A stretch of DNA of 32,727 nucleotides from a virus. The notes below the pieces were generated by a model, which was not told the origin of the DNA, did not search any database, and saw nothing but the letters and a program-made list of their open reading frames with translations. A program made the translations under genes and the position numbers. The DNA lies in IMG/VR virus record IMGVR_UViG_3300028925_010542, positions 1 through 32,727 of that record; one strand, 5' to 3'. Every line of letters starts with the position of its first letter. Position 1 is the stretch's first letter. Shown in pieces: positions 8,730-30,477 of this stretch.

Positions 8730-8908
8730 CCGTTGTTCTCCATATTCCACTTATCTACGGCTTCTTTCATACCAGACATTGGGCCCTGATAAATTATATT
8801 TGTAGATTTATTCCCTACTGGAATATCTACCAACACCTTTTCTTTATTTGTTAAGTCTTGACTGACTGCCTCTAGCTTTTCTTCTTTCTTTTTACCGAAC
8901 CAACCCAT
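8726..8908 (-). CDS. Small hypothetical protein
   Basis: This 60-residue protein begins MGWFGKKKEEK and has a charged N-terminus and no membrane segment or Cys. No family is recognised. It overlaps both neighbours: TAATG with the PAP2-type phosphatase gene upstream and ATGA with the metallopeptidase gene downstream, so it is likely real and co-translated. AAGG nine bases before the start is a possible ribosome-binding site. Confidence 0.6.
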   Translation of the reverse strand: MGWFGKKKEEKLEAVSQDLTNKEKVLVDIPVGNKSTNIIYQGPMSGMKEAVDKWNMENNG

Positions 8909-9555
8909 TATTCATTACCTTTCATCTGTCTAAATAATTCATCTGCTAACTTCTCACCATACTTTTTATCACTTACATAATGAACTCTACCCATTATTCT
9001 TGATTCAGAAACTTTCTTTGCTATATCCATATATTCATCTGTATTCTTTGGGTCTTTCTTACTCAATACTAATCCAATTAAACGACCTTGTAATGCGTGG
9101 CCACTTGGATAACTTGGTGTTTTAGCAGTATCTAAGTTATGTCGTTTAAAATCTTCTATATTATAATATTCTGCTATTTGAAATGGTCTTGGTCTGTTGT
9201 ATTTATATTTTAATTTAAAGAGATATTTAGCTGTGTCTTGAATAATCTGTTGTAAGTATTCTTCTTTAACATCAATATTATTTTTTTCTACTACTTCCAT
9301 AAATACTTTTACTGTATCATCATACTTCTCTACAAATTTATTATCAATAACTCCGTCATTGTATGCAAGTAGATAATGTATTTCCGATTTTGTTTTTTGA
9401 CTATCATTAGCAGGTGGTTTAATTCCTGATAACGATACCTTTGGTGGAAACAATTTAACTTCCCTTTTCATCTTTTTTAGGTGTCTTGGTTTTATGGTTT
9501 TGGAAAAAACCATATTCTTTAAACTCTCGTTTATAAGTTCTTTTAATTTAATCAT
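8908..9555 (-). CDS. PAP2 / class A acid phosphatase-superfamily protein
   Basis: This 215-residue protein carries all three PAP2-superfamily motifs: K-x6-RP in KYKYNRPRP (116-124), PSGH (150-153) and SR-x5-H-x3-D in SRIMGRVHYVSD (185-196). The predicted nucleophile is His192. Such enzymes remove phosphate from lipid phosphates, nucleotides or other phosphomonoesters. No transmembrane helices or signal peptide are obvious, unlike lipid-phosphate PAP2 enzymes, so it appears soluble. The N-terminus MIKLKELINESL is an amphipathic leader outside the catalytic core. GAGG precedes the ATG by 7 bases, and the start overlaps the upstream stop as ATGA. Phosphate scavenging or nucleotide handling is plausible. 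Confidence 0.85.
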   Translation of the reverse strand: MIKLKELINESLKNMVFSKTIKPRHLKKMKREVKLFPPKVSLSGIKPPANDSQKTKSEIHYLLAYNDGVIDNKFVEKYDDTVKVFMEVVEKNNIDVKEEYLQQIIQDTAKYLFKLKYKYNRPRPFQIAEYYNIEDFKRHNLDTAKTPSYPSGHALQGRLIGLVLSKKDPKNTDEYMDIAKKVSESRIMGRVHYVSDKKYGEKLADELFRQMKGNE

Positions 9556-9761: not shown

Positions 9762-10272
9762 AATTAACTAATCTTGTTATCAGTTTAATATCGGGATATG
9801 TATTTTTTAATTTCTTTACTGCTACTATATTCTTTTTTGAATCATCAAAAAATAATACATCATCATATCCATTTTTTATCTGCTTCTCAATCCAATCTGA
9901 TTTATCCTTTGGATTAGAACTTGATAATGCAACAACATAAACATCATATCCAATATCTTTAAAAAATTGACGAACTGGCTTGTATGCAGCTCTTGCTGTC
10001 AAAATTGTTATTCTTCTATTGCCAGAAGCTTTATAAATATTCTTAAAAACTCTAAACATAGATTTAATCTTTTTGGGTTCGATTACTTTACTAAAATCAG
10101 TAAAGTCAAACTCATCACCCGATTTAGCTTTGTATATTGCGTATTCACCAGTAGTTAGTGTTTTCTTTTTCCCTTTATTAATTACGTGTATTCTTGAATT
10201 AGACTTAACTAATGTATCATCAAAATCAAATACTCGTAATTTCTTTTCTAACAATAATTTTAACTTAATCAT
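9754..10272 (-). CDS. HAD-superfamily phosphatase (possible polynucleotide 3'-phosphatase)
   Basis: This 172-residue protein has the HAD motifs in order: DFDDT (Asp16, Asp18), LTARAA (Thr92), Lys122/Lys124 in PKDKSD and FFDDS (143-144). The fold resembles the phosphatase half of phage polynucleotide kinases and related acid phosphatases, but no kinase P-loop is present. The ATG at 10272 overlaps the upstream stop as ATGA and is preferred over 10284, which has no ribosome-binding site and would add only MGLE. The N-terminus MIKLKLLLEK resembles that of the PAP2-type protein two genes on. Candidate substrates are DNA/RNA 3'-phosphates or small phosphomonoesters. Confidence 0.8.
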   Translation of the reverse strand: MIKLKLLLEKKLRVFDFDDTLVKSNSRIHVINKGKKKTLTTGEYAIYKAKSGDEFDFTDFSKVIEPKKIKSMFRVFKNIYKASGNRRITILTARAAYKPVRQFFKDIGYDVYVVALSSSNPKDKSDWIEKQIKNGYDDVLFFDDSKKNIVAVKKLKNTYPDIKLITRLVNYD

Positions 10273-10985
10273 CTCCAATCCCATAGTTTAATTAAATTGT
10301 AGGTTATACCAATTCCAATTACTGGTTCTGTCATACCTGTTGTGTTATTGTATGCTATACCCAAAAACGGGCCAATTGTTAATTGGTTTCTTGGTGGTTG
10401 TATTTTTTGGATTTCACCCCTACCTCTAATTGTTATACCACCAATATACGTTTCATCAATATACGAAACAAATTCATCTTTATTAATCTTTTCTATCTTT
10501 GGTGTTAAATTAATTTCACCAATTGTATTGACATCAACTTTCTTAGTCGTTAGATAATCATCTTTCCACGCAACCAATACTTGCCCTTTGGTTTCATATT
10601 GACCGACACGATTAACTTGTTTATCTACAAATTTAAATCTATCATTACCTGATATATTAGAAGACAAAGTTGACTTCATAGACATCACTTCAATCTTATA
10701 TTCTAAATCTCTTAGTCTTTCTAATAGTAGTGAGTTTTCTTCACCACGAGTTTCGTTGTGTTCTGCGAAATCTAATAATAGTTCTACATTTTGGTCAGAT
10801 AATAAATTGACTCTATCTTCCAAACTATCTATTAGTTTTTCTTGAACTTGAACTTTTAATCTCAATCCAACAAACTCACGATACAATTGTTTTATATCGT
10901 AATGATTTGCAAAATAAACTGATGCTAATAAAGATAACGATGCTATTAATGAAAGTATATCTTTATAATATTTCTTGAACCGCAT
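10269..10985 (-). CDS. Membrane-anchored coiled-coil protein with C-terminal beta segment
   Basis: This 238-residue protein has one N-terminal hydrophobic helix (about residues 10-26) followed by a heptad-rich region (about 30-100), so it is probably anchored in the inner membrane with a periplasmic coiled coil. The C-terminal 35 residues (TIGPFLGIAYNN..., then PVIGIGITYNLIKLW) look like amphipathic beta strands. The start overlaps the end of the CsgG-like gene by 23 bases. Inner-membrane anchor, coiled coil and a possible outer-membrane-facing end would suit a spanin-like or envelope-bridging protein, though no known spanin family is recognised. It may equally work with the CsgG-like proteins encoded just upstream. 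Confidence 0.65.
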   Translation of the reverse strand: MRFKKYYKDILSLIASLSLLASVYFANHYDIKQLYREFVGLRLKVQVQEKLIDSLEDRVNLLSDQNVELLLDFAEHNETRGEENSLLLERLRDLEYKIEVMSMKSTLSSNISGNDRFKFVDKQVNRVGQYETKGQVLVAWKDDYLTTKKVDVNTIGEINLTPKIEKINKDEFVSYIDETYIGGITIRGRGEIQKIQPPRNQLTIGPFLGIAYNNTTGMTEPVIGIGITYNLIKLWDWR

Positions 10986-11478
10986 TACCTATTGCCTCTT
11001 TCAAAGCTCCACCGAGTTCACTTCTATCGAAAGGTAATTCTTCGTTTATTTGAAAACCAGTAGCACTAATTTCTTTATCAATAGTTCCTACTCCATTACC
11101 ACTAACGACTTTACCCGTCTTTTTATTTAATAATTCAACCACAACTCTAATTTCTGTTGTAGTGGTTTGCTTTTTAAATATTCCAAGTATTGTTGTTGAT
11201 GTTCTTGGTCTTCCAAGATAAACAACTCTTGCTGTTAATTCAAAGTCTGATTCATTTTCTACTAAATCATATCGTGAATCCATTACATTTTCTGTAAGTA
11301 TATTTGTAATACCCAAGAAAATACGAGTGTCTTCTAAACCCTCAACTTCTGCTTGATTAACAAAGTTGTTAATTGTCAAAGTTGGAATTTCTAGTTTGTC
11401 TTGACCAACCATTGTTGGTTCTGGCATTTGTGCATTTACTAATCCAATTAGTAATACGATTAACCATAGTTTCTTCAT
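10963..11478 (-). CDS. Secreted CsgG-like protein, short form
   Basis: This 171-residue protein has a signal peptide ending VNA|Q and lacks a lipobox. The mature part resembles the C-terminal half of CsgG-family (curli secretion channel) proteins: a strand-rich region with VVVELLNKKTGKVVSGNG and a terminal helix FDRSELGGALKEAIGNA that matches the family's closing FD-x-S...A...AI pattern. The ATG at 11478 has AAGGAG six bases before it; an upstream in-frame TTG at 11505 is rejected. Canonical CsgG is about 260 residues and lipidated, so this is a short, non-lipidated relative. It is the second of two CsgG-like genes in the cluster and may form a periplasmic or outer-membrane ring component. 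Confidence 0.65.
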   Translation of the reverse strand: MKKLWLIVLLIGLVNAQMPEPTMVGQDKLEIPTLTINNFVNQAEVEGLEDTRIFLGITNILTENVMDSRYDLVENESDFELTARVVYLGRPRTSTTILGIFKKQTTTTEIRVVVELLNKKTGKVVSGNGVGTIDKEISATGFQINEELPFDRSELGGALKEAIGNAVQEIL

Positions 11479-11488
11479 TTTCTTCTCC

Positions 11489-12475
11489 TTAAAAATTAGT
11501 TCCAAATATTATCGAATAGCTTATATTTCGTTTTCCAATATCATTAACTAACGTATTATATCCTACATAAAACCCAAAATTCATCTTAAAGGTTTCTGTA
11601 AAGTTAAAATCTACATTAAATCCTGGATAAATCAATATAGGACTTTCCAGTAATAAATATTTGTTTTCCGTTTTTAATCCCTCATAATAACGAAAAATCG
11701 TATAACTTACAAAAGTTTGTAAGTTTAAGGTATTGTTTCTCATTTGTATTGGATATCTATACCCATACATACCATTAATGTTTAAAAAATTCTGTCGTGA
11801 TATTTGTCCAACTGATGAACTTATCAATCCAACTTGGTTTACATCTTGCTTAATTACTTTTCCGTAATTACCTGTGATTAACCAATCACTACCCTCAAAT
11901 GTTCTATAATATAATGCTCCTACATTCCAAAAAGCACTTTGTTTCTTTTCTTTGCTCTTACCACTCCTACCATACAACCCTAAGACTTTCTTTAAGTCCA
12001 AAGTAATATTCATAGTGTAGTTAAATTCTTTAGTTAGGTCAAAGTTTTCTTCACTATAAACTGAATTTAGTGAAGTAACCGAACCATAACTATAAAAGGT
12101 ATTAACGATATCTCCACCAATAAAACTTGGTTCCGATGCCGATATATCCTCGTCTTCACTTTCTTCTAATTCTGCCGACAAGCCCAATGTGTTCGCAGAT
12201 GCTAATGCTTCTTCTGCAATATTGACCGCACAAGGAAATAGTTTTTCAAAATCACTATAAACTTGCTGTGTCCAATTTTGTAATGTTCCGTCTGCTACTT
12301 GTTCCCAAGTAAAAAATGCTCTTTGGTTGTAATAAGTTACCCAAAAACCACCTTGTGTTGTTTCAGTTGTATAATTAAGATTAACCGCTTGTTGATTACA
12401 AGGGTCTATATAATTATAACCGAAACCTTGTCCATATAAACTACTTACTAATAATAATGTGAGTAACCATTTCAT
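11489..12475 (-). CDS. Predicted outer-membrane beta-barrel protein
   Basis: This 328-residue protein has a signal peptide (MKWLLTLLLVSSLYG|Q). The C-terminal half is made of alternating aromatic/polar strands and ends in Phe (SIIFGTNF), the usual C-terminal signal of outer-membrane barrels. An N-terminal region with two Cys (DPCNQQ and LFPCAV) may form a disulfide-linked plug or domain, followed by an acidic linker (EESEDEDISAS). It lies between the two CsgG-like genes, starting 6 bases after the first, so a joint role in outer-membrane transport or surface assembly is likely. No specific family is recognised; the call rests on signal peptide, strand pattern and terminal Phe. Confidence 0.65.
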   Translation of the reverse strand: MKWLLTLLLVSSLYGQGFGYNYIDPCNQQAVNLNYTTETTQGGFWVTYYNQRAFFTWEQVADGTLQNWTQQVYSDFEKLFPCAVNIAEEALASANTLGLSAELEESEDEDISASEPSFIGGDIVNTFYSYGSVTSLNSVYSEENFDLTKEFNYTMNITLDLKKVLGLYGRSGKSKEKKQSAFWNVGALYYRTFEGSDWLITGNYGKVIKQDVNQVGLISSSVGQISRQNFLNINGMYGYRYPIQMRNNTLNLQTFVSYTIFRYYEGLKTENKYLLLESPILIYPGFNVDFNFTETFKMNFGFYVGYNTLVNDIGKRNISYSIIFGTNF

Positions 12476-12480
12476 TCATT

Positions 12481-13185
12481 TTACCAACCTCTTTTTTCCA
12501 TTCGTCTTAATACATTTGCGACTGCAGTAATTACTGCACCCGTTGTTGCAAATGAAACGGTAGATTGGTCAAATGACATATCAAGATTTTTTAATAGTCC
12601 TTCACCTTCTTTTGCTGAAGTTCCTAAACCACTACCTGTAATATACTTACCTGTTTCAACTGAAACAAGACGAACTTGAATACCAACCATTGTGGTATTT
12701 TTTAATTTTGCTTTTCTTCTTGATATTTCTTCTTGATTAGATACTGCAAAATCATACAATTCTGCATATACAAAGTATTTAGTTTGTGCAAATTGTCCAA
12801 CACTATCTAATTCATTGTCAAGTAATCCACTAACACTTCTTTCCCACTCTTTAACCATTTTATTTAATACTTCTTCTTTTTCTTCAACGAAGTAGAATCG
12901 TCCTGCTTCTTCCAAGACTTCAATGATTCTTTGAGTTACACCAAATCCAACTCGTTTATCACGAAGTTCTGGATAGGCATTTAGAATATTTTCTGAAATG
13001 GAAATCTGAATTAATTGAACTCCTTCAGGTTCTCCATCAAACCACTTGATATCATCAAGAGTTTTTTCTGCTTCATAGGAAGCTATCTTTGATTGAACTT
13101 TTGTTTTACCTGATTGAGCTTCAACACTTGATGTTGCACACCCAAATAAAAATAATGTTATTAATAAACTTAATATATGTTTCAT
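12481..13185 (-). CDS. CsgG-family outer-membrane lipoprotein
   Basis: This 234-residue protein has a lipoprotein signal peptide with lipobox LFGC (Cys16), then CsgG-like features: VGFGVTQRIIEVLEEAGRFYFVEEKEEVLNKM, matching the family's 'short-strand, L...grF.vveR' region, a TKYFVYAELYDF strand, and a closing helix FDQSTVSFATTGAVITAVANVL. CsgG forms the outer-membrane secretion channel for curli subunits; relatives occur widely in FCB bacteria. No curli subunit (CsgA/B) or CsgE/F gene was seen nearby. AAAGGA precedes the ATG. The gene follows the ferredoxin and precedes the barrel gene. A phage-encoded CsgG-like lipoprotein is unusual. Confidence 0.75.
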   Translation of the reverse strand: MKHILSLLITLFLFGCATSSVEAQSGKTKVQSKIASYEAEKTLDDIKWFDGEPEGVQLIQISISENILNAYPELRDKRVGFGVTQRIIEVLEEAGRFYFVEEKEEVLNKMVKEWERSVSGLLDNELDSVGQFAQTKYFVYAELYDFAVSNQEEISRRKAKLKNTTMVGIQVRLVSVETGKYITGSGLGTSAKEGEGLLKNLDMSFDQSTVSFATTGAVITAVANVLRRMEKRGW

Positions 13186-13189
13186 TTTT

Positions 13190-13477
13190 TTATCCTTTAA
13201 AAAAGTTTGCGTTAATTTCTACGAACCTTTGCATATCTTCTGGTGCGTCATCTTCATCCCAAATAGCATCTACTGGACATTCAGGTTCACACGCTCCACA
13301 ATCAATGCATTCTTCTGGGTCTATATAAAGTTGTTTCCCAGAAAGGTCTTTCATACCAATAACTTCTGCTCCTAATCCTGTTGGGTCGTCTGGTCCGTGA
13401 ATACAATCCACTGGACAAACTTCAACACACGCTGTATCACAAGTACCGATACACGGTTCTGTTATGATAAAGGTCAT
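13190..13477 (-). CDS. Bacterial-type ferredoxin with two Fe-S clusters
   Basis: This 95-residue protein has nine Cys in the arrangement of 7Fe/8Fe ferredoxins: C9-x3-C13-x3-C17-x3-C21-P-V-D-C25, then C57-x2-C60-x2-C63-x3-C67-P. Compared with Azotobacter FdI, C9, C17 and C67 would bind one cluster and C21, C57, C60 and C63 the other, with C13 or C25 as possible extra ligands. It would act as a low-potential electron carrier in the cytoplasm. The start overlaps the stop of the 45-residue gene as ATGA, and the CsgG-like lipoprotein gene follows. Phage ferredoxins of the plant-type 2Fe-2S class are known; this is the other, bacterial class. Its redox partner is not encoded nearby. Confidence 0.9.
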   Translation of the reverse strand: MTFIITEPCIGTCDTACVEVCPVDCIHGPDDPTGLGAEVIGMKDLSGKQLYIDPEECIDCGACEPECPVDAIWDEDDAPEDMQRFVEINANFFKG

Positions 13478-13611
13478 TTTTCTGTTTTGCCAAACCCTAA
13501 CATCATCAATTGTACCATAAGAATTAATCTTTTAATTAAAGATAAATCATCTCGTTTCAATTCATTTTGTATGTGTTTGAGTTTTGCTTCTTTTGTTTTA
13601 AATATTTGCAT
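13474..13611 (-). CDS. 45-residue small protein, coupled on both sides
   Basis: This short gene was found by reading the gap between the coiled-coil and ferredoxin genes. Its ATG (13611-13609) overlaps the upstream stop as TAATG, and its TGA (13476-13474) overlaps the ferredoxin start as ATGA. The product has a basic N-terminal helix (MQIFKTKEAKLKHIQNELKR) and a Met/Leu-rich hydrophobic stretch (LIKRLILMVQLMMLGF) that could sit in or on a membrane. No family is recognised. The exact double overlap is the main evidence that it is translated. Confidence 0.6.
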   Translation of the reverse strand: MQIFKTKEAKLKHIQNELKRDDLSLIKRLILMVQLMMLGFGKTEK

Positions 13612-14015
13612 TAGTTTTTAAACCTTGCTAATGGGTCACCGTGAAACTCTTCAATCATTACCTTAAGATTCTTAATAGAACCTTTAAGTTCTTTAATATC
13701 ACGATTAAGATTTACGATATCCTTTTCTAATGGTGATAAATCAACATTACCTACGGTATCTAATTTTTCTCTTAGGTAAACGATATCATCATCAAAACTT
13801 TGAATTTTGTTAGTGACTATTTCTATATCACTTGCTTCTGCAAATCCTTCAACTACTTCTTCTAATGAATCTATTCTACCTGTAAAAGTATACCAACCTG
13901 CTATCAAACCTGATAACACTGTTACTAAACTTACGATATTTGTTATTGATAATCCGAATTTTTTATTCTGAGCATCATCTAACATTTTTTCTGTATCTAC
14001 TACTTTTTTTGCCAT
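13611..14015 (-). CDS. Single-pass membrane protein with coiled coil
   Basis: This 134-residue protein has a short cytoplasmic N-terminus, one transmembrane helix (about residues 21-42, ITNIVSLVTVLSGLIAGWY) and then a periplasmic heptad-rich region to near the end (SLEEVVEGFAE..., DIVNLNRDIKELKGSIKNL). AGAGGA precedes the ATG. The topology matches an inner-membrane spanin subunit or another envelope-tethered coiled coil. No partner outer-membrane spanin lipoprotein is recognisable, although the CsgG-like lipoprotein gene lies two genes downstream. The gene sits directly after the Cys-repeat peptide. The function is uncertain. Confidence 0.65.
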   Translation of the reverse strand: MAKKVVDTEKMLDDAQNKKFGLSITNIVSLVTVLSGLIAGWYTFTGRIDSLEEVVEGFAEASDIEIVTNKIQSFDDDIVYLREKLDTVGNVDLSPLEKDIVNLNRDIKELKGSIKNLKVMIEEFHGDPLARFKN

Positions 14016-14119: not shown

Positions 14120-14974
14120 CTAAAAATCAAACCCGAATGATAACATCAAGGTTTCGTTATGGAAACTCTCGGTATTGTAAAGATATGCTAATGATATATC
14201 CACAACATTAGTATTGATACCACCACCTATTGTGATGTAATCAACATTAAATTCTGGTTCTGAATAATACCCTAATCTTAAATTACCTACTTCTCCTAAT
14301 AAATATTCACCACCAACTCCAAATGAAGAATAATCTTCAAATAGTTTTATATCTGATAGTAAACTAAAACTACCAAAACTTTGTTTAATACCAATACCTA
14401 ATGACATTGGTAAACTTGATGATTGGTCTGCAAATTTCGTTTCACCACCTAAGTCTTTTAATACAAGACCTAATGATGTGTTACCGAATACTTTATGAGC
14501 ACCGATATCAACTCCATAATTCATATCAATATCTATATCATCAATGAAACTATGATTGTAAAGATTAAGTCTTGCACCCAATAACCAATCTCCTAATTCC
14601 ATAGCATAACTTCCACCAACTCTTAGTGATGATGAATCAAAATCTCCTGTTATGATACCACCAATATCTGCAGCTGTTTGAGTTCCGTAATCAAAGTAAA
14701 ATACTTCTACCGAAAATCCCATACCACTTGTGTATTGTAGATTTTGATATCCCATATCATCAACAAGATTTGGTAACCACTTTACATATGATGTTTCTTG
14801 GTGTGATTCAAGTCCTGCAAATGCTGGATTATGAAATAGGTTTTTAGAATTTGAATCCGCAATACCTGAATTTCCTGCTCCTGCACTATGAACACTTGGG
14901 TTCAATGTAAATATACTATTTGCCTGTGCGAATAGTGTTCCTGTTAATAGTAATAAACCTAATAATTTTTTCAT
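14120..14974 (-). CDS. PorV/PorQ-like outer-membrane beta-barrel protein
   Basis: This 284-residue protein has a signal peptide ending LFA|Q. Right after it comes a PorV/PorQ-type start, SAGAGNSGIADSNSKNLFHNPA, matching the family's 'SARSAALGGA...NPAGL' pattern. Strand-rich sequence follows and ends in Phe (LMLSFGFDF), as in outer-membrane barrels. PorV is the type IX secretion shuttle that collects cargo leaving the translocon and passes it to the cell-surface attachment complex; the wider family also includes FadL-like transporters. AGGAG precedes the ATG, and the start overlaps the upstream stop as TAATG. The T9SS cargo gene lies two genes upstream in the same run. Confidence 0.78.
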   Translation of the reverse strand: MKKLLGLLLLTGTLFAQANSIFTLNPSVHSAGAGNSGIADSNSKNLFHNPAFAGLESHQETSYVKWLPNLVDDMGYQNLQYTSGMGFSVEVFYFDYGTQTAADIGGIITGDFDSSSLRVGGSYAMELGDWLLGARLNLYNHSFIDDIDIDMNYGVDIGAHKVFGNTSLGLVLKDLGGETKFADQSSSLPMSLGIGIKQSFGSFSLLSDIKLFEDYSSFGVGGEYLLGEVGNLRLGYYSEPEFNVDYITIGGGINTNVVDISLAYLYNTESFHNETLMLSFGFDF

Positions 14975-15372
14975 TATTTAACTCCTCTGAAATTTCTTTC
15001 TTTTCTATGGTGTTTGTTTCGGTTGTCCATATCATCTTTTCCAATAACATATCCCAAACTAAAAATCACAATACTACCAAGTATCATACGATTTTTCTTT
15101 GAATGTATTTGGTGTTTATAATTTTTGTTATTAAATTTATTATGATGATGTTTATGTTTATTGACGATTTTTCTATCGTGCATTTTCATTCTCATCATCA
15201 TTTCTTCAACTTGAACTTGTCTGTGGTTATCTTTTTGTTTCCACATTCTTTCTTGTTGAAGTTGGTCCTTGTGTTTAATCATTTCTCTATGTTCTTTTTT
15301 AGCTTCATCAGTATCATTGATTGACTGAGCCATTAAAGGAAATAGAAATAATAGTAATAATAATTTTCTCAT
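14974..15372 (-). CDS. Secreted His/Met/Lys-rich protein with one membrane helix
   Basis: This 132-residue protein has a signal peptide (MRKLLLLLFLFPLMA|Q). It continues with a strongly charged, helix-forming region that contains MMMRMKMHDRK (58-68) and KHKHHHNK (72-79), in total about 12 His and 11 Met. A hydrophobic segment (96-111, MILGSIVIFSLGYVIG) and a basic C-terminus follow. The His/Met-rich region could bind Cu, Ni or Zn; the hydrophobic segment with small residues could insert into a membrane. AAGGAG precedes the ATG. It lies between the T9SS cargo and PorV-like genes. No family is recognised. Confidence 0.65.
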   Translation of the reverse strand: MRKLLLLLFLFPLMAQSINDTDEAKKEHREMIKHKDQLQQERMWKQKDNHRQVQVEEMMMRMKMHDRKIVNKHKHHHNKFNNKNYKHQIHSKKNRMILGSIVIFSLGYVIGKDDMDNRNKHHRKERNFRGVK

Positions 15373-15380
15373 AATACTCC

Positions 15381-18341
15381 TTATTTAATTATTGTAAATT
15401 TCTTAGACTTTATTTTGTTTTCTGTTTCCATTACAAATAGATAAATACCTGGTTCCAAGTCTTCATATCCACCATATCCACCTTCACCTATTACATCTGG
15501 TAAGTCTGAGAAAGTATAAGTGTGCATTCCGTCATTAACGACTTCATCTAATATTACACCGACTTTTTGTCCGTTAGCGTTATAAATACTAATCATTACT
15601 TGACCAGTTTGTTCCATAAAGAATTGGAAGTTAATAGATTCGTGTTCACTATTGTTATATGGATTTGGATAAACATAAGTCATTTCATCTTCTGATGGTT
15701 GTCCACCACCGAATGCCCAAAACTTATTCCATATTCTAATCTTACCACTTTGTCTATTCATAAGTAAGTCATCACCTGCTGGATTACCAGCGTTAGCTTT
15801 TCCTACAAATTGTAAGTCTGCTTCTGTCCACTCTTGGTTATTGTTTTCATTTAGTTTTGAATTAAATACTAATTGTAATCCAACCATTTCTTCTGTAATG
15901 TAGTAATCTTGTGGTGCATTGTTCGGTGAGTTATCTAATCCACCAAATGAAATTGTTTTGTATCCGTCTTCGTCAACTTCACTTTCATTTAAGTAAGTCA
16001 TCCACGGCCCTGGCAGTAATCCTGTTTGAGCGTCTATAAATTGTAATTGTTCTTCTTTATATCTAACTTCAAATTCAAATCCTGCTACTTTAGTTGGTAG
16101 TCCTGTTATTTCATCTACACTTGGTGTAATTGTTAATGGAACTACAACTTGGTTACCCATTTGAACTTTAACACTTCCGTCATCTGGTAATGATAAACTC
16201 ACACCTTGTGTTGAGTTCATACTTCTACTACTTCCATTATAGGTGTTGTTTGTGTTGGTATATGTCCAAGCTGTTGGTGCGTCATCACAACTTGCATTTA
16301 CACAATTTTGATTCCAAGAACTATCTCCTGAACTTCCGTTCTGAACCGTATGTGTTGACCAACGATAATATGTTGTTCCTGTGTAAGCGTCTTGATATCC
16401 ATCTGCACCTTGAGATGTTTCTAAAACTTTTGTTCCTGTTAAATTCATATCACCTGTAAAGTGAAGTGCTATTTCAGCTTGTGTATAATCTGGATTTACA
16501 TCTCCGTCAGTTGAAACATCAGGGTCATCAAAGGTTGATGTTCCTGCTAAAATTACTACTTGTAAAGTATCATTACCTGTTACGACATCATCCATCAAAG
16601 CATTTAACCAAACAACTCCCCCAGCGTCTTGTGTTAGTGTTGTTGTTTCTTGTGGTAAGCTGTCATCCCAAAATGCTGTAAATTCTCTTCTTTGTTTTGT
16701 ATCACCACCTCTAAGTGCTTGGTAATAACTAAGACTTTGTGCATTTCCGTTTGCTTTTAAATTATCTATACTTGACCATTGTTGATAAGTGTTTCCATTA
16801 ATGTGAGTATATGATGTTGAGAATACTCCACTTACATACGCCCATAAGAAATAAGCATCATTTAATTGGAACAAGTCATCTCCGTCAACATCACCAATTA
16901 AATATGCACTTGGTGAATCTACATTAATACTTGTTTCATTTATAAATTTATTTGATTGGAAATTAAATGATGCGATTGCGTCATTAATATTTGTAATAGC
17001 ATATCTATCCAATTCCAATTGTGAATGACTTCCGATATCATCATTTGCGTCTGGTGGCCAGAACGAAACACGATAAGTATTGTTTCGTGGTAATTGGATA
17101 TTGTAATATCCATTTTTATCTGTATAGGTGTAATCAAAATATGATACTCCTAAGAATCCTTTACCTGGTAAAGCTTGTGATGCCAAAGCTGTTGGTGTGG
17201 TTGTGTCTGTTAATTTATAATAGTAATAAGTTCCACTAGCGTCTCCAATAACATCATCACTTAAATCTTCATCTGCTGTGTTTGCGTCATCAGCAATACT
17301 TTCTATATTATACCAATTACTAAATGGTGTATTACCATCTACATTTGGATTTGCTTCATCCAATTCAAAAACAACTTTCCAATATGGATATGTTTTTTGA
17401 ACAAATGTATCGTCGTCTATTCCGTCTGAGTCTGTATTGGTTTTTTCTCCAATATATCTACCGAAACCTTCAATGTCAACAAGTTTTGGATGTAGAGAAA
17501 TATCTCCTCTTGCACCACCATTGTTTACTGAATCAGTTCCCCAATTTCCGTCAATGTATACTTTGTAATCTAATAAGTAATCATCAGATACATAAGTATA
17601 ATATCCAGTTCCACCACTATAAAGTGTTGGTATTCTAAATGAACGTGGTTGATAATTATCAACTACATCATTAATTCTAAATGTTAATTTAAGAACTTGT
17701 GCTTGATTTCCAGAACCATTACCAAATGTAAAATCTGGTGTTCCATCACCTGCTCCATTATTTTCAGCGATATCAACTCCGTGACTTACCATAGTAACTC
17801 TTAACCAATCATAACCTGAATCATTTGCTGAAGTTTCATTCCCACTACTTTGAATAGTATCAGTATATCCTACATTGGAATAATGAACCACCTCAAATGA
17901 ATAGTCTGTTGAATTAGTTGATGTTTCATCACCCTCAGTCCAACCTGATATTTGACTACCTTTAATTACTCGTGAGTTTCCTTGAGTCCAAGCATTGATT
18001 GATGTTTCTTGTGTAGTTCCATCATTTTCAATCCAAGTGATTAAATCATTATCAAATGCTATGTCAAATCTAAATGTAGTAATATCTTTACCTACATCGT
18101 CAAGAGTGACTTCTAATTCTAAAATATCATCTCTCCAAGAATCAAAATTATTATTTGTTAGGGCTGGTGTTGATATATCATCTGCCAAAAATGTTTGTAA
18201 TTGTACAGTTGTTTGGGCTTTCCACCAATATTCTGGTGTCTTCCACTCCCCTATTTGTTTAACTCTTATAATTGGATTCTGTGCAAAGACAAATCCAAAC
18301 ATAACTGCTGTCATAACTATTTTTTTCATAAAACGAAACAT
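15381..18341 (-). CDS. Large secreted protein with T9SS C-terminal sorting domain
   Basis: This 986-residue protein has a signal peptide ending FVFA|Q. A beta-rich N-terminal half follows, then a dockerin/EF-hand-like loop DVDGDDLFQLND (about 485-500). A cohesin-like segment (about 725-870) contains VQMGNQVVVPLTI and VAGFEFEVRY. The last roughly 95 residues are a type A T9SS sorting domain: YVYPNPYNN near 888, a G-x-V...GMHTY middle, then LEPGIYLFVMET and the KKFTIIK ending. Such domains direct export through the type IX system and surface anchoring in FCB bacteria. GGAG eight bases before the ATG supports this start. It opens the envelope-gene block, directly after tail genes. The enzymatic role, if any, is not visible; an adhesin or surface-layer role is plausible. 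Confidence 0.85.
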   Translation of the reverse strand: MFRFMKKIVMTAVMFGFVFAQNPIIRVKQIGEWKTPEYWWKAQTTVQLQTFLADDISTPALTNNNFDSWRDDILELEVTLDDVGKDITTFRFDIAFDNDLITWIENDGTTQETSINAWTQGNSRVIKGSQISGWTEGDETSTNSTDYSFEVVHYSNVGYTDTIQSSGNETSANDSGYDWLRVTMVSHGVDIAENNGAGDGTPDFTFGNGSGNQAQVLKLTFRINDVVDNYQPRSFRIPTLYSGGTGYYTYVSDDYLLDYKVYIDGNWGTDSVNNGGARGDISLHPKLVDIEGFGRYIGEKTNTDSDGIDDDTFVQKTYPYWKVVFELDEANPNVDGNTPFSNWYNIESIADDANTADEDLSDDVIGDASGTYYYYKLTDTTTPTALASQALPGKGFLGVSYFDYTYTDKNGYYNIQLPRNNTYRVSFWPPDANDDIGSHSQLELDRYAITNINDAIASFNFQSNKFINETSINVDSPSAYLIGDVDGDDLFQLNDAYFLWAYVSGVFSTSYTHINGNTYQQWSSIDNLKANGNAQSLSYYQALRGGDTKQRREFTAFWDDSLPQETTTLTQDAGGVVWLNALMDDVVTGNDTLQVVILAGTSTFDDPDVSTDGDVNPDYTQAEIALHFTGDMNLTGTKVLETSQGADGYQDAYTGTTYYRWSTHTVQNGSSGDSSWNQNCVNASCDDAPTAWTYTNTNNTYNGSSRSMNSTQGVSLSLPDDGSVKVQMGNQVVVPLTITPSVDEITGLPTKVAGFEFEVRYKEEQLQFIDAQTGLLPGPWMTYLNESEVDEDGYKTISFGGLDNSPNNAPQDYYITEEMVGLQLVFNSKLNENNNQEWTEADLQFVGKANAGNPAGDDLLMNRQSGKIRIWNKFWAFGGGQPSEDEMTYVYPNPYNNSEHESINFQFFMEQTGQVMISIYNANGQKVGVILDEVVNDGMHTYTFSDLPDVIGEGGYGGYEDLEPGIYLFVMETENKIKSKKFTIIK

Positions 18342-18391: not shown

Positions 18392-19375
18392 TTATACATC
18401 AAAACGAACTACAAAAGTAGTTTCGATGTCATCACTTAATCTGATAGGTTTGGCAAGTTTTCCGTGAGCTAATAGTTCATTTTCTTCACTATAAAGACCG
18501 ATATCTGTCACATATGGTTTAAATTCTGAACCAGTTGTCATTGGTAATGATTCAGTTGCTGCATTGTAGAATGTTGCATAACTTCCTGTTCCTTGACCAC
18601 TCGGATTATGACTTGGTGGGAAGAAGTTAGACATTGAAACCGCACCCTCTTTTACTGTAATACTACCACTTCTATCAGGTGTTAAACTAATATTTGTTGA
18701 AGTATTAAATTCAAAAGGTTTTGCTTTTACGAGATACTCATATTCATATATTGTATGAGTTGCTTGATATTTTAATGTATAGGCAGATGTTGCGGCGTCA
18801 CCATAAGAACCTGTATCGGTAAAGATTAATAGTCCTTGTGGATACATTATGTTACCGACTTCACTACCACTACCTACTGCATTTGTAGTAGTTGTACTAC
18901 CACTTGTAAATTTGTTTGTTTTGAATGTTGAGAAACTTGCAGAGTGTGCATTATCATAAAGATTTCCATCTCCGTCATCTCTAATATCAAATGTTACACT
19001 ACCAATCGTTACCGATAAATCAAGACTACCTGGTTTTATTTCTTCTCCAAATAAATCTCTACCAACACTTAGTATTGAAGCAGATGTATTTAAATTTGTG
19101 CTGACTAATCCTGGATTATAACTTGCTGTAACGTGATTAGCATAAAATGTTTGATTTAACATATGCCAAGTTGGTAATCCAAAGTATTGTGTCGTTACTG
19201 AACCCGAAACTACTTCGGTTACTGCGTCTGATGCGCTTGTGTAATTAAATTGAGAACCACTTCTAGCCTTTATTCCCCATACTCCACTTCCACTATCATT
19301 ATTAGTGAACGTAAAGTTCTTATGGGTTTTAAAAGGTCTAACTGATGCTTCTTGTAATTCAAGATTTTTGAACAT
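18392..19375 (-). CDS. Tail structural protein with shared C-terminal domain
   Basis: This 327-residue protein is Ser/Gly/Thr-rich and beta-strand-like, typical of phage tail or baseplate appendages. Its last 45 residues (YVTDIGLYSEENELLAHGKL, then RFDV) align closely with the end of the next gene upstream (FITQVGLYNDENELLAIAKL, then KLDF), so the two share a paralogous C-terminal domain. AGGA precedes the ATG and overlaps the previous stop. No fibre or enzyme family is recognised. Both proteins probably attach to the same site on the virion through this shared end. Confidence 0.6.
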   Translation of the reverse strand: MFKNLELQEASVRPFKTHKNFTFTNNDSGSGVWGIKARSGSQFNYTSASDAVTEVVSGSVTTQYFGLPTWHMLNQTFYANHVTASYNPGLVSTNLNTSASILSVGRDLFGEEIKPGSLDLSVTIGSVTFDIRDDGDGNLYDNAHSASFSTFKTNKFTSGSTTTTNAVGSGSEVGNIMYPQGLLIFTDTGSYGDAATSAYTLKYQATHTIYEYEYLVKAKPFEFNTSTNISLTPDRSGSITVKEGAVSMSNFFPPSHNPSGQGTGSYATFYNAATESLPMTTGSEFKPYVTDIGLYSEENELLAHGKLAKPIRLSDDIETTFVVRFDV

Positions 19376-19384
19376 TATTTTGTC

Positions 19385-20428
19385 CTAAAAATCAAGTTTC
19401 ACTTTTATAATAGCTTCCCTTGAATATGAATTTAGTAAAGGTTGAGATAACTTAGCAATTGCTAATAGTTCGTTCTCGTCATTATAAAGTCCAACTTGCG
19501 TAATGAAAGTTTTTGGGTCTTTAAAGAAAGTTGCTTGTGTCAATGAACCATCTGAACCTGTTGCAAAGGTTGGATTAGAACTAAAATTAAATTTCTTGTT
19601 GTTTACACGAACAAAGAAATTTGTTGAACTAATTTCCTCTTCTCTACGAGCTGCGAAATATGAACCAGATTTAAGCGAATTATAAAACGCTTGTGGTCTA
19701 TTGGTAAATGCGTCAGCTGACCTAGGGTTTACTGATAATCCACCACTCAATTCTGCCATTTTAGCATTTAGTAATACGATTCCTAAATCAGGATAAAATA
19801 ATCCATATGAACCAAATAGAGTTTCAGCTGCTGCTGTTGTATTAACTCCGTCTGCTACTGAACCACTAACAACATTAAATACTCTACCACCTTGATTAAC
19901 GGTAACATTTGTTGTTGCTCCACTATCATCAATTAATTTAATTTTACTACTAGCCGTATCACCTGCTGGCATTAGTCCTGCTAAATGTAATTCCCAATTT
20001 CCTGGGTCAATCTTTTCTCTTTGTCTTGCTCTTTGAAAAGAAACAAAATAAAAGTCTTTATCTCCTGATGCGGTTGGTGATGCGGTAAATTCAAATTTAT
20101 TGGTATTTGGTGCTAACAATACATTTCTAAACTGACTATATAGTGCAGCTGATTGTCTACCACCTGTTGTTAATTTTGTTGTATTTCCTGTTGAACCACT
20201 TCCATCAAAGTGTGCATATCCAATTGCGTACTGGACTTCTGCTGAACTTGAAAGATTTGGGTCTTCGTTATAGATATCTAAAAAGGAACCTGTAATGTTT
20301 CCATTTGTAGATTGTGTAAATGCGGCTTCAAGAGTTCCTGAACCACCTGTCCATAATCCACTCGAGATAGTTGTTCTTTGATTTTCAACTACATCATTTT
20401 CTTTATCAAATATTTGAAATGTTGACAT
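19385..20428 (-). CDS. Tail structural protein, paralogue by C-terminal domain
   Basis: This 347-residue Ser/Gly-rich, beta-rich protein begins MSTFQIFDKENDVVENQRT. The C-terminal 45 residues match those of the following gene, including GLYNDENELLA and a K-L hydrophobic ending. The N-terminal 300 residues differ between the two, suggesting variable or receptor-facing parts joined to a common assembly domain. AAGGAG precedes the ATG. It is flanked by other structural genes and has no signal peptide, so it is likely a virion component. Confidence 0.6.
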   Translation of the reverse strand: MSTFQIFDKENDVVENQRTTISSGLWTGGSGTLEAAFTQSTNGNITGSFLDIYNEDPNLSSSAEVQYAIGYAHFDGSGSTGNTTKLTTGGRQSAALYSQFRNVLLAPNTNKFEFTASPTASGDKDFYFVSFQRARQREKIDPGNWELHLAGLMPAGDTASSKIKLIDDSGATTNVTVNQGGRVFNVVSGSVADGVNTTAAAETLFGSYGLFYPDLGIVLLNAKMAELSGGLSVNPRSADAFTNRPQAFYNSLKSGSYFAARREEEISSTNFFVRVNNKKFNFSSNPTFATGSDGSLTQATFFKDPKTFITQVGLYNDENELLAIAKLSQPLLNSYSREAIIKVKLDF

Positions 20429-26914: not shown

Positions 26915-28081
26915 TTATCTCACCACTCTAAATTCAAATTCATCATCATAGAAATTAATTTGTTCATCAGTAGTGTCACTACCACTAATTACTTTAATAG
27001 CAAATCTATAATTTCTCTCTGCTTGTAGTCCGTCCATTTGTATGTTAAAGAAATTACTTGTTGAATCACAACTAATCTTAGAACCCGTTCCAAATGGAAT
27101 TATCTCTTCCTCTGTTTCTGCGTCACGAACTGAATAAAAAGCAGATGCACTTGGTAAATACTTTATATCTAATTCACTTGGTGTTGTTGCAAAAGAAGTT
27201 GTTGGATACAATTCTCTACCAACTACTCTTAATTTTACTTTTGATTTTTCTTTGTATTCAGGTCTTAAATTTTTAAAATATATTTTTAATCTTTCTAAAT
27301 CTGTTGAACTTAAAGCTGATAAACTTCCTGTTGCCCAACTTGAGTCATCCCACACTGCTTCCAATTTAGGTGGATAGATTGTATGAGTTTCTCTTGAAAA
27401 GAATTTTAGATTTCCTAATCGAGTTGAATCACCTTCTTGTCCTGCATTAAATGTGAAACTTGCTGTTGCGTGATTGCTTCCATATGAACCACTATCCTCT
27501 CGTTTCAGAATAAACCCGTTGTTCGGGTAAACTGAACTTGAGTAAACCCAATTATTCACCATATCAGTAACATCTGCTCTAATATCTTTCTTATCAAATG
27601 TAATGTCAAATGAAGAACTAATACCATATTCTTGATTAGCATCAAGACTTGCTGAAAACCAAGTACCACCTTCAGTCAATACCGAACCCGTAATCCAAGG
27701 CGTTAACGCATCGTGATTACGATATTGATAACTTGCTCCGTCAGAAGTTACTGGATTGTGGTCAAGTTTTCCTGTTCCTGCAGTCCAACTACCACTTACC
27801 ATATAAATGTGCAGTTTTTGTTCTGCTTCAACTTCTTCCGAAGTTGCGTCAAATAAATTTAAAAAGAATTTTGTTCCTGTTGGCATTAAACCACTTTGGA
27901 TTGATTCTGAAATATATACTAAATCAAAGTCAATCAATACTCTTGATACATTTGCTATACTACCATTTTGTTGAACGACTTTATTAACTTCTAATATTTC
28001 ATCTAATCCAGTATTGATGGAAGCTGTTGTTCCACCCGAATAAAGTGTTGTGTCTCGTTTTCCAAATTCAAAATAATGCAT
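26915..28081 (-). CDS. Structural protein with DNRLRE-like N-terminal domain
   Basis: This 388-residue protein starts with a pattern seen in DNRLRE-type carbohydrate-associated domains: DTTLYSGGTTASINTGLDE, then SRVLIDFDLVYIS. Later come VTDMVNNWVYSS and NNGFILKRED, which also fit that beta-sandwich. The C-terminal third contains an Ig-like or fibronectin-like stretch (YRFAIKVISGSD). The start overlaps the stop of the gp6/J-like gene as TAATG. A glycan-binding or scaffolding role on the baseplate is suggested; the domain match is by eye. Confidence 0.6.
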   Translation of the reverse strand: MHYFEFGKRDTTLYSGGTTASINTGLDEILEVNKVVQQNGSIANVSRVLIDFDLVYISESIQSGLMPTGTKFFLNLFDATSEEVEAEQKLHIYMVSGSWTAGTGKLDHNPVTSDGASYQYRNHDALTPWITGSVLTEGGTWFSASLDANQEYGISSSFDITFDKKDIRADVTDMVNNWVYSSSVYPNNGFILKREDSGSYGSNHATASFTFNAGQEGDSTRLGNLKFFSRETHTIYPPKLEAVWDDSSWATGSLSALSSTDLERLKIYFKNLRPEYKEKSKVKLRVVGRELYPTTSFATTPSELDIKYLPSASAFYSVRDAETEEEIIPFGTGSKISCDSTSNFFNIQMDGLQAERNYRFAIKVISGSDTTDEQINFYDDEFEFRVVR

Positions 28082-30066
28082 TATTTATCTCCCAATACTC
28101 TTCCCTCGATATCACTATCGGGGAATTTCAGTTCAAATATACTTGGGTCTAATGATGGATATACAACTCCGTCTTTTGATGCGGAATCCATATCATAAAC
28201 ATTACCACTATAATTGTCTGTTGTTAAATGTTTATTCGTAATAACAATTAAATTCTTTTGTGGATTATTTGTTTCTGGTGGAACAATTGAAACTACTCCG
28301 TCCACTAATGAAATCTGATATGCTAAATCACTCAACACAATCGGTTGATTAATTTGCCACTTCTCTGTTGCGAAGAAATTCTTCACTTGTTGTATTGCTT
28401 TAAACAATACATCATTTTTATTAAATCCTCTACGAGTTATGATATTAAACTTAACTCCAATATTAATAACATAAGCGTCTTTAAGATTAATTGCATCTGT
28501 TAGTAATCTATATTGTGAAAGATATAATTTTAAATTTTCTTTTACTGCTTGATTTACTTGAGTTAGTTTTTTATTTCCTGTATGACCTAATAAATACATA
28601 TTCAATGCCATAGGATTAGGAATAGTTGAGATGTTTCCAATTCGTTTTGCTACCCCATCAATGACTTCCAATTGTCCATTTTGTTCTAATTGTTCATCTT
28701 GAACAATAAATGCTTTTGCAATATTACCATATTTCTGTGGTAATGAATAAACTCTCGTAATGTAGTCTGCTCTTGTTACTGCTCTATTCTGTGCATTAAA
28801 GTATGCTGCAGCATTTTCTTTTATTTCAATTAATGTTTCTTGACTTGCTCCACCTGAGCTTGGTGATTCATTAAATACTATCAAACTTCCATTTGAAGTA
28901 TCTTGTGTAGCAGTATCTAAACCTGATGTGCTATTTGTATAGGTTTTACTCTTAAAGTTTGTAATTGCATTTGTTGGAACATTATCTTCAACTGCTCCAC
29001 CGTAATTATATTTTACAGTTAATGTAGTGCTTGATGGTGATAATCCAAATGTTTCAGTCTTTAGGAAATTACTTGGGTCAAAACTTTCATCTAATCTTGA
29101 AATACCCGTTCCTAATGATGAACCAACATTATCTGGATTTGGAATCAATTCTTCATCTGCGTCTGCACTAATACCACTTCCGAATCGTATTTCCATTTTA
29201 TTATCATCACGAACATAAGTTGTAAATCGTCTTGCTGTTTTAATTAATTTTAATAAATAAGGTGTATCATTTTGATGTTCTGATAAAGCTGGGTCATTAA
29301 GTGTTGTATTTTCTTCTGATTCAAATACCGTATCTTGTGCTAAGAAAGGAACTTGATACCAAGTATTATTTTCACTATCAGTTATTGATATAATTTCCGT
29401 TACCTTTTCATTTGATAAAACTATTTTGTCAAACTTTTTAGCAGTTGTAAATGTAAATGTTTCTTCTTCTCTTGTTCCAGATTTTGCTAAAACTTTTTTA
29501 GTTAATCTATAATTTGTTGGAATATTACCTGAAGTGGGTTGTAATGTTTCTACTTGCATTGGGTCTAATGAACTTGATGCTTTAAAATTAACATCATCCA
29601 ATAAACTAAATTCTGTTCCATTCTGTGATACTACCGTTGAGTTTCCACTTACAATACCAGAGTAATCTAAGTCTGCTTGGTAAGTTGCACTTGCTCCACT
29701 ACCAATTGTTTTTGCAGGTACATCAACTTGAACCGTAAGTTCTACCGTTGAAGGTGCTGCTAATCTTGGTTTATATCCATATGATTGAGCAATTGCTAAT
29801 ACATTTTTTCTTTCTTCTGCAAATTGTAATAATGTTTCTCTAAATTGATTATCAACATAATAATTCAATACATCACCTACATACGCAGCCATTTCAACAA
29901 ACATCATTCCTGGTGATGCTTCATTGAAATCATTGTATGTTGTTGGGAAGTAACTCTTTGCAAATTCTATAAGATTTTGTCTTATATCACGGAAATCTCT
30001 ACCGAGATAATTTACCTCTTTTTTTACTAATTTTTTGTTTGTTCCGTAGTCTACTTGCCTCGGCAT
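28081..30066 (-). CDS. Baseplate wedge protein, gp6/J-like
   Basis: This 661-residue protein has the hallmark N-terminal region of baseplate J/gp6 proteins: FNEASPGMMFVEMAAYVGDV, then LNYYVDNQFRETLLQFAEER and YGYKPRLAAPS. The central part includes VTRADYITRVYSLPQKYGNI, also typical of J-like proteins. These proteins form the inner wedge ring of contractile-tail baseplates. The gene follows gp25, as W precedes J in P2-like phages. No signal peptide. Confidence 0.88.
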   Translation of the reverse strand: MPRQVDYGTNKKLVKKEVNYLGRDFRDIRQNLIEFAKSYFPTTYNDFNEASPGMMFVEMAAYVGDVLNYYVDNQFRETLLQFAEERKNVLAIAQSYGYKPRLAAPSTVELTVQVDVPAKTIGSGASATYQADLDYSGIVSGNSTVVSQNGTEFSLLDDVNFKASSSLDPMQVETLQPTSGNIPTNYRLTKKVLAKSGTREEETFTFTTAKKFDKIVLSNEKVTEIISITDSENNTWYQVPFLAQDTVFESEENTTLNDPALSEHQNDTPYLLKLIKTARRFTTYVRDDNKMEIRFGSGISADADEELIPNPDNVGSSLGTGISRLDESFDPSNFLKTETFGLSPSSTTLTVKYNYGGAVEDNVPTNAITNFKSKTYTNSTSGLDTATQDTSNGSLIVFNESPSSGGASQETLIEIKENAAAYFNAQNRAVTRADYITRVYSLPQKYGNIAKAFIVQDEQLEQNGQLEVIDGVAKRIGNISTIPNPMALNMYLLGHTGNKKLTQVNQAVKENLKLYLSQYRLLTDAINLKDAYVINIGVKFNIITRRGFNKNDVLFKAIQQVKNFFATEKWQINQPIVLSDLAYQISLVDGVVSIVPPETNNPQKNLIVITNKHLTTDNYSGNVYDMDSASKDGVVYPSLDPSIFELKFPDSDIEGRVLGDK

Positions 30067-30069
30067 TTC

Positions 30070-30477
30070 TTATTCTCCAATATTAAAATTAAATGTTAAT
30101 GTTTCAAAAGAATCGGGTTCTAATGATACTGAAAAGTCTATTGATACATCCACGATATTACTATCGCCTTGAATCACAACTATATCGTTTATGTTTATAT
30201 AAGGTAACCAACTTGAAGTTGCGTCTCTAATAGCTTCATCTATTTGATTTTGAACATCTGGTCCTTGTTCAAATAAGATATCTGTTAATGTTGAACCAAA
30301 TTCAGGTTGCATAACTCTCTCACCCTTTGATGTTAATAATAAATTTCTCAGATTAGCTTTTGCTTGTTCTAATATAGTTTTTGTCTTATAGAAAAATCCC
30401 TCTGGACTATAATCTAGTGGAAATCTAACTCCAACATATACATCATCATTTCTATCTATTTCTCTTACACTTGCCAT
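30070..30477 (-). CDS. Baseplate wedge protein, gp25/W-like
   Basis: This 135-residue protein shows the GPW/gp25 signature: NLLLTSKGERVMQPEFGS, followed by LTDILFEQ and a helical-strand C-terminus ending NFNIGE. gp25 sits at the core of the baseplate wedge in contractile tails and binds gp6. The gene ends 4 bases before the J-like start and follows a 160-residue gene. Length and motif fit the family well. Confidence 0.9.
   Translation of the reverse strand: MASVREIDRNDDVYVGVRFPLDYSPEGFFYKTKTILEQAKANLRNLLLTSKGERVMQPEFGSTLTDILFEQGPDVQNQIDEAIRDATSSWLPYININDIVVIQGDSNIVDVSIDFSVSLEPDSFETLTFNFNIGE

Follow-up and report, generated by a model that had tools for sequence, protein, structure and literature searches.

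The window analysed here is the whole of a 32.7 kb IMG/VR virus contig (record IMGVR_UViG_3300028925_010542, 32,727 nucleotides), with baseplate genes at 28081-30477. On its minus strand, at 15381..18341, it harbours an open reading frame with an ATG start encoding a protein of 986 aa, which ORF and domain searches identify as a predicted type A cargo of the type IX secretion system (T9SS). From the N to the C terminus, the protein comprises a signal peptide, a beta region, a dockerin-like region, a cohesin-like region and a sorting domain. The signal peptide (residues 1-20; 18282..18341, minus strand) was assigned from the sequence pattern following the Bacteroidetes Q-rule, with predicted cleavage before Q21. 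The type A sorting domain occupies residues 890-986 (15384..15674, minus strand); TIGR04183 matches residues 890-984 with 32.3 bits (E 7.4e-8; NCBIfam cut-off 23), and a six-frame search returned a match of 38 bits at 15390-15674. The Pfam model of the sorting domain gave 20.8 bits, under its cut-off of 27. An initial annotation, made from the DNA alone, had proposed a signal peptide ending in A|Q and a type A sorting domain with a YPNP start, a G-rich centre and a GIYLFVMET...KKFTIIK end. All of these elements are present: the signal peptide ends in FVFA|Q, all 21 homologues share Q21, and the TIGR04183 search suggested at the time bears out the domain.

The cohesin-like region spans residues ~714-873 (15723..16202, minus strand). 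In the window protein alone, the cohesin model PF00963 matches residues 722-774 with 20.6 bits, under the cut-off of 24.1. Across the family all 21 proteins match at E <= 0.1 (best 1.9e-12), and the homologue in Flavobacterium phage vB_FspM_immuto (hereafter immuto) reaches 36.6 bits, above the cut-off; the cohesin-like region of the initial annotation, near threshold in the window protein, is thus upheld by its relatives. The dockerin-like region (residues 441-510; 16812..17021, minus strand) contains the calcium loop DVDGDDLFQLND at residues 484-495 (16857-16892, minus strand), and D454, D484 and D495 do not vary among the 21 sequences. Compared with type I dockerins, which carry two DxNxDGxIxxxD loops, the region has one good loop (484-495) and a degenerate second half. 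The Dockerin_1 model (PF00404) did not match the window protein at E up to 1, whereas it matched seven of the 21 cargo homologues at E <= 0.1 (best 5e-4), and a strict 12-residue calcium loop occurs in three of the 21 proteins against 0.15 expected by shuffling. The dockerin-like motif noted earlier therefore stands as a single calcium loop with matches among the homologues, and not as a Pfam match in the window protein.

The diverse set of viral cargo proteins consisted of the window protein and 20 others, 16-66% identical to it, and the sorting domain was recovered in 18 of these 21. Since the cohesin, dockerin and sorting parts are matched across 21 divergent viral homologues, we regard them as real. 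TIGR04183 also found the sorting domain in all 14 close homologues, and the dN/dS of the cargo gene (0.16-0.36) corresponds to purifying selection. The structure model of the cargo was too poor for a fold search (pLDDT 38.7), and a search of PDB sequences with the cargo profile gave chance matches only. That the protein is a virus-made substrate of the type IX secretion system of the host is the best explanation overall, with a probability of roughly 60%; this reading, already proposed in the initial annotation, is backed more by the homologues than by the window protein alone.

Downstream of the cargo gene lies a gene for a small exported His-rich protein of 132 aa (14974..15372, minus strand), which starts 8 bases after the cargo gene and overlaps the following gene by 1 base. 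The product is also very rich in Lys and Met and has a C-terminal hydrophobic stretch; it is kept in some relatives only, at varying places. The overlapping gene (14120..14974, minus strand), missed by the initial annotation, which named only tail genes as neighbours, encodes an outer-membrane beta-barrel of the PorV/PorQ family (284 aa), here proposed to be a phage-encoded T9SS shuttle. Its product matches the PorV/PorQ family model NF033709 with 103.3 bits (cut-off 90), as do 14 of 14 viral homologues at E up to 0.001. The PorV equivalog model NF033710 gave 61.8 bits against a cut-off of 250, and because this model is far from reached, the protein could be another barrel of the FadL family. 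The BamG model matched only one of the 14 homologues. A profile of the 14 homologues retrieved Flavobacterium johnsoniae PorV from the PDB sequences at 6.8e-13, with the next entry at 0.1. In the predicted structure (pLDDT 76.5), barrel strands begin at residue 58 and are preceded by short N-terminal helices, which agrees with an outer-membrane barrel of FadL type whose N terminus forms a plug, and Foldseek found the PorV chains of the T9SS translocon to be closest. VIA-align gave PorV a Z of 27.6 over 267 residues; FadL proteins scored within 1 Z unit, so the fold alone cannot separate PorV from FadL. A fold search of BFVD returned weak matches to generic barrels only, and viral relatives could still exist. 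Neither the cargo nor the PorV-like gene nor the 132-aa protein had a match in PHROGs, and when the cargo and the PorV-like protein were compared with 50,697 phage records by tblastn, no hit was obtained.

Twenty-two contigs include the cargo 3' end together with sequence beyond it (18 from the cargo search, two from the lipoprotein search described below, one filed under a Flavobacteriales MAG, and the window), some of them near-identical. In every one, the PorV-like gene comes after the cargo gene, with at most one small gene between them. Across these contigs, the lowest identities are 46% for the cargo and ~24-25% for the PorV-like protein, whose dN/dS of 0.14-0.42 indicates purifying selection. 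Fifteen viral PorV-like proteins form one clade in the tree (support 100/95), apart from a sample of 29 Bacteroidota proteins, which fall into two groups taken as PorV and PorQ-like from their length and score. The best match in a Bacteroidota genome, with a viral-looking contig set aside, reached 88 bits. On these two grounds a recent capture of a PorV gene from a host is not supported, and the gene looks like an old viral lineage.

The barrel might instead work in the outer membrane independently of the cargo; it could be a decoy receptor or a transporter, or could block the host translocon by jamming it. Such a role would agree with the FadL-family folds scoring nearly as high as PorV, with the missed PorV equivalog cut-off, and with the absence of specific co-variation: in a mirror-tree analysis, the PorV-like protein was coupled no more closely to the sorting domain than to the rest of the cargo. 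However, PorV is the best match both by sequence and by fold, and among the module contigs checked the PorV-like gene occurs only in the clade of the window, beside the cargo. We therefore favour the shuttle and consider an independent barrel unlikely, although it is the strongest of the competing explanations.

The genes directly upstream of the cargo encode two conserved tail-region proteins of 327 and 347 aa (18392..20428, minus strand), which in relatives are followed by tail fibres in place of the cargo. Beyond the PorV-like gene, the minus strand encodes a protein of 134 aa with a transmembrane segment and a coiled coil (13611..14015), conserved beside the PorV-like gene and at best spanin- or holin-like. 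Further on, it is followed by an exported lipoprotein of 234 aa (12481..13185), which served as the module marker, by an exported protein of 328 aa with a Y-x-Y-x-DPC start and a barrel-like end (11489..12475), whose family is conserved downstream of the lipoprotein gene, by an exported paralogue of the lipoprotein (10963..11505; 180 aa from TTG, 171 aa from ATG), and by a membrane-anchored coiled-coil protein of 238 aa conserved in the window clade (10269..10985). The 234-aa lipoprotein bears a faint resemblance to CsgG, and PF03783 matched one of 23 homologues (E 0.018). A CsgG or curli identity was rejected for the window lipoprotein, with 14.8 bits against a cut-off of 20.8 and no PDB match.

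The cargo is part of a wider module of Bacteroidota-type phages, in which the cargo is accompanied by the exported lipoprotein and a protein predicted to lie in the outer membrane, and often also by lectin or PA14 proteins that are exported. The marker lipoprotein (query 12481-13185) was found in >560 viral contigs. A type A sorting domain was present in 33 of the 47 lipoprotein contigs tested (32 above the cut-off), and at the loci inspected the sorting-domain protein is encoded just 5' of the lipoprotein gene. The family of the 328-aa protein was found in 76 of 80 lipoprotein loci. Genes of the PorV family were present in two of the 47 contigs, both from the window clade. Most module phages, immuto included, have no PorV match, so the PorV of the host can suffice. 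On the contigs of L091, L092, L094 and L102, a second, different sorting-domain protein (frame of 533-542 aa) is encoded elsewhere.

Several phages encode exported Lectin_C, Laminin_G_3 or PA14 proteins downstream of the barrel-like gene. A calcium loop of strict dockerin type is present in four of ten such lectin/PA14 proteins, where shuffling would give 0.02; the loop pattern was chosen after inspection of the family. No sorting domain was seen in the lectin/PA14 proteins examined, and no separate lectin gene was found in the window clade within the stretch covered. Three exported phage proteins (L091:13032-14024, L103:12053-13798 and L097:10787-12439) combine a C-type lectin with a dockerin-type loop, and two of them also possess laminin-G.

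In one clade (examples are L111, L120, L121, L123 and L138) the cargo stops behind the cohesin region, and a gene immediately 3' of it encodes a lipoprotein of ~120 aa whose Ig-like end is similar. We read this Ig-like end as possibly related to the sorting domain. The exchange of one anchor for another, sorting domain for lipoprotein, fits envelope anchoring as the common purpose. Cargo homologues without a sorting domain that are followed by the ~120-aa lipoprotein were observed in L120 (7521-9613), L111, L121, L123, L138 and L145.

Two phages share the tail gene order of the window. The baseplate wedge protein is 39.9% identical to that of immuto and 46.8% identical to that of Microcystis phage Mel-JY01; immuto was reached through this baseplate protein and its record was then searched with HMMs. 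The module of immuto contains a 363-aa protein, a 243-aa protein with cohesin and sorting domain (QQO91933.1; TIGR04183 45.4 bits, in addition to the cohesin score given above), a lipoprotein 34% identical to that of the window (E 5e-43) and a protein related to the 328-aa one, and a Lectin_C protein is encoded upstream within it. A 627-aa homologue from another phage aligns over both the 363- and the 243-aa proteins (29.5% over 95%), which indicates that the immuto cargo is split in two genes. The split (L048:2599-4423) lies between the dockerin-like and the cohesin parts, with a signal-like start on each. Similar to most module phages, immuto gave no PorV match.

In immuto the module is located next to nrdA, with ~70 kb between it and the baseplate genes, and in other phages the module lies near the endolysin. 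The proximity to tail genes pointed out in the initial annotation is accordingly true in the window but does not define the gene. Neither a sorting domain nor a PorV match was detected in Mel-JY01, whose host is a cyanobacterium; this agrees with a requirement of these parts for a T9SS in the host, in a comparison of one phage each. Contig L045, filed under a Flavobacteriales MAG, shows the gene order of the window clade. It is probably viral and was binned together with a genome rich in T9SS genes, which makes it a weak hint to the host of the window clade.

The setting near endolysins raises the alternative that the module is an apparatus for cell exit, in which the cargo, the lipoprotein and the barrel would serve a lysis cassette as its arm for the outer membrane, weakening or piercing it when the cell lyses. 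In the wider family, 24 of 26 contigs have a recognisable endolysin (GH19 or PG_binding) at most 7 kb away from the lipoprotein gene, compared with ~7 by random placement, but this count is not independent because the contigs are related; moreover, immuto has its endolysin ~30 kb away from the module, and the window-clade contigs searched gave no match to GH19 or PG_binding. The small transmembrane proteins encoded between the cargo and lipoprotein genes, and a 3TM holin directly 5' of the cargo in one relative, would also suit lysis, as would the phage CsgGF that has been proposed as a lysis regulator (PMC9004378); the CsgG label on the lipoprotein is, however, weak, and cohesin, lectin and PA14 domains fit binding better than breaking. 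A GTA-type 3TM holin was present in one of 49 records and was rejected as a part of the module. On balance we find an exit apparatus improbable.

That the cargo is instead a structural virion protein, such as a tail fibre or whisker with an end that merely resembles a sorting domain, appears very improbable: tail fibre or spike genes (immuto annotation) hold its place in both phages with the same gene order, and BACON proteins of crAss-like phages near tail genes have been linked with T9SS domains (PMC6949934), but the conserved signal peptide with its invariant Q21, the position of the immuto module far from its baseplate genes and the constant presence of the PorV/PorQ-family gene downstream of the cargo make such a role less likely.

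Returning to the cargo as a secreted protein, we propose the following route. It would enter the periplasm by Sec and be cut before Q21, a step read from a conserved sequence pattern, and the SprA translocon of the host would then read the type A sorting domain, as expected from the domain match and from knowledge of the pathway. We hold these two steps to be highly probable. The PorV-like barrel would act as a dedicated or additional shuttle from the translocon to the anchoring machinery, which its family, its predicted fold and the invariant gene pairing render probable. A PorV of the host that becomes limiting late in infection, or a different destination for the phage cargo, might explain why the phage brings its own shuttle.

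The cargo would finally be displayed by the infected cell as a surface scaffold of cohesin/dockerin type, an end point that we favour slightly. In related phages, this scaffold could hold the lectin or PA14 proteins, which are exported on their own and in several cases have dockerin-like loops. Cellulosomes have cohesin on a surface-anchored scaffoldin and dockerin on the partner enzymes. The predicted layout of scaffold and partners is alike, with the differences that here both the scaffold and the lectin/PA14 partners would be viral and that the dockerin match is partial. Display on the cell surface is well argued, and we infer it from the parts described above. Our guess is that the coat alters the binding properties of the cell, in the simplest case because receptors are hidden from further phages or because cells are made to adhere to glycans; the benefit of display may be receptor masking, adhesion or cell exit. 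Export and display would take place late in infection. Taken as a complete viral display kit, in which a scaffold with a sorting signal is accompanied by a PorV-type shuttle that takes over from or supplements that of the host, and the cell is re-coated late in infection with a viral cohesin/dockerin scaffold that gains lectins in related phages, the proposal is tentative.

In F. johnsoniae, PorV collects type A cargo from the translocon, and type B cargo is served by cognate PorP/SprF-like shuttles, whose genes are often directly downstream (PMC12618676). The shuttle gene directly 3' of its cognate type B cargo is required for secretion (PMC12618676). PorV and PorP-like proteins are 14-stranded barrels of the FadL family, with a proposed common site on the translocon (PMC9143113). 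Similar to the SprB-SprF and Fjoh_3952-Fjoh_3951 pairs (PMC12618676), the window presents a cargo gene followed by the gene of a FadL-family barrel, and this mirrored gene order suggests that the phage barrel is a cargo shuttle. The bacterial pairs are chromosomal and combine type B cargo with PorP/SprF-like proteins, whereas the viral pair combines type A cargo with a PorV/PorQ-family protein.

T9SS cargo of phages has already been published. Cryophage, a Bacteroidetes phage, encodes proteins with type A sorting domains for which use of the host system was proposed, and this was called a unique occurrence (PMC7468147); its cargo comprises variable enzymes and a PA14 protein, and cohesin and PorV are unmentioned. 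ORFs of gut phages with T9SS sorting domains are also described in PMC6949934, with carbohydrate-binding BACON repeats and, in the passages concerned, no mention of a shuttle gene or of cohesin/dockerin. Pelagimyophages and Melnitz are likewise marine phages with envelope proteins; theirs are CsgGF pores and S-layer-like proteins, for which a part in lysis or in the exclusion of other phages has been proposed (PMC9004378); these involve type VIII secretion, and the window lipoprotein is not CsgG. In the open-access literature, to which the searches extended, we found no report of a phage-encoded protein of the PorV family, and the PorV/PorQ-family gene is therefore the part for which no precedent was found.

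A family of marine bacterial viruses thus pairs a predicted T9SS cargo with a relative of PorV, which suggests that infected cells are re-coated with a scaffold-like protein. If the conserved pair is indeed cargo and shuttle, a component of a secretion machine is supplied by the viruses themselves, which thereby redirect that machine. The pair would also provide a natural test of how shuttles recognise type A signals, which is useful since one PorV serves all type A signals in F. johnsoniae. The surface-remodelling system would seem to be widespread among phages, considering the number of lipoprotein contigs and the frequency of the sorting domain in those checked, and the cultured phage immuto makes the scaffold part accessible to testing.

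Further genes were observed on the minus strand of the window. Within the envelope-protein cluster, at 13190-13477, a 4Fe-4S ferredoxin of 95 aa (Fer4, 43.5 bits) is encoded; it is conserved in several relatives and is a possible auxiliary metabolic gene and host clue. Near the cluster, at 8908-9555, lies a gene for a PAP2-family phosphatase (28.1 bits, cut-off 27.2), with a possible function in lipid or envelope modification. A 1052-aa ORF with a TTG start at 2999-6157 matches SbcD in its N-terminal part and then SbcC/Rad50, and is an apparent nuclease-ATPase fusion.
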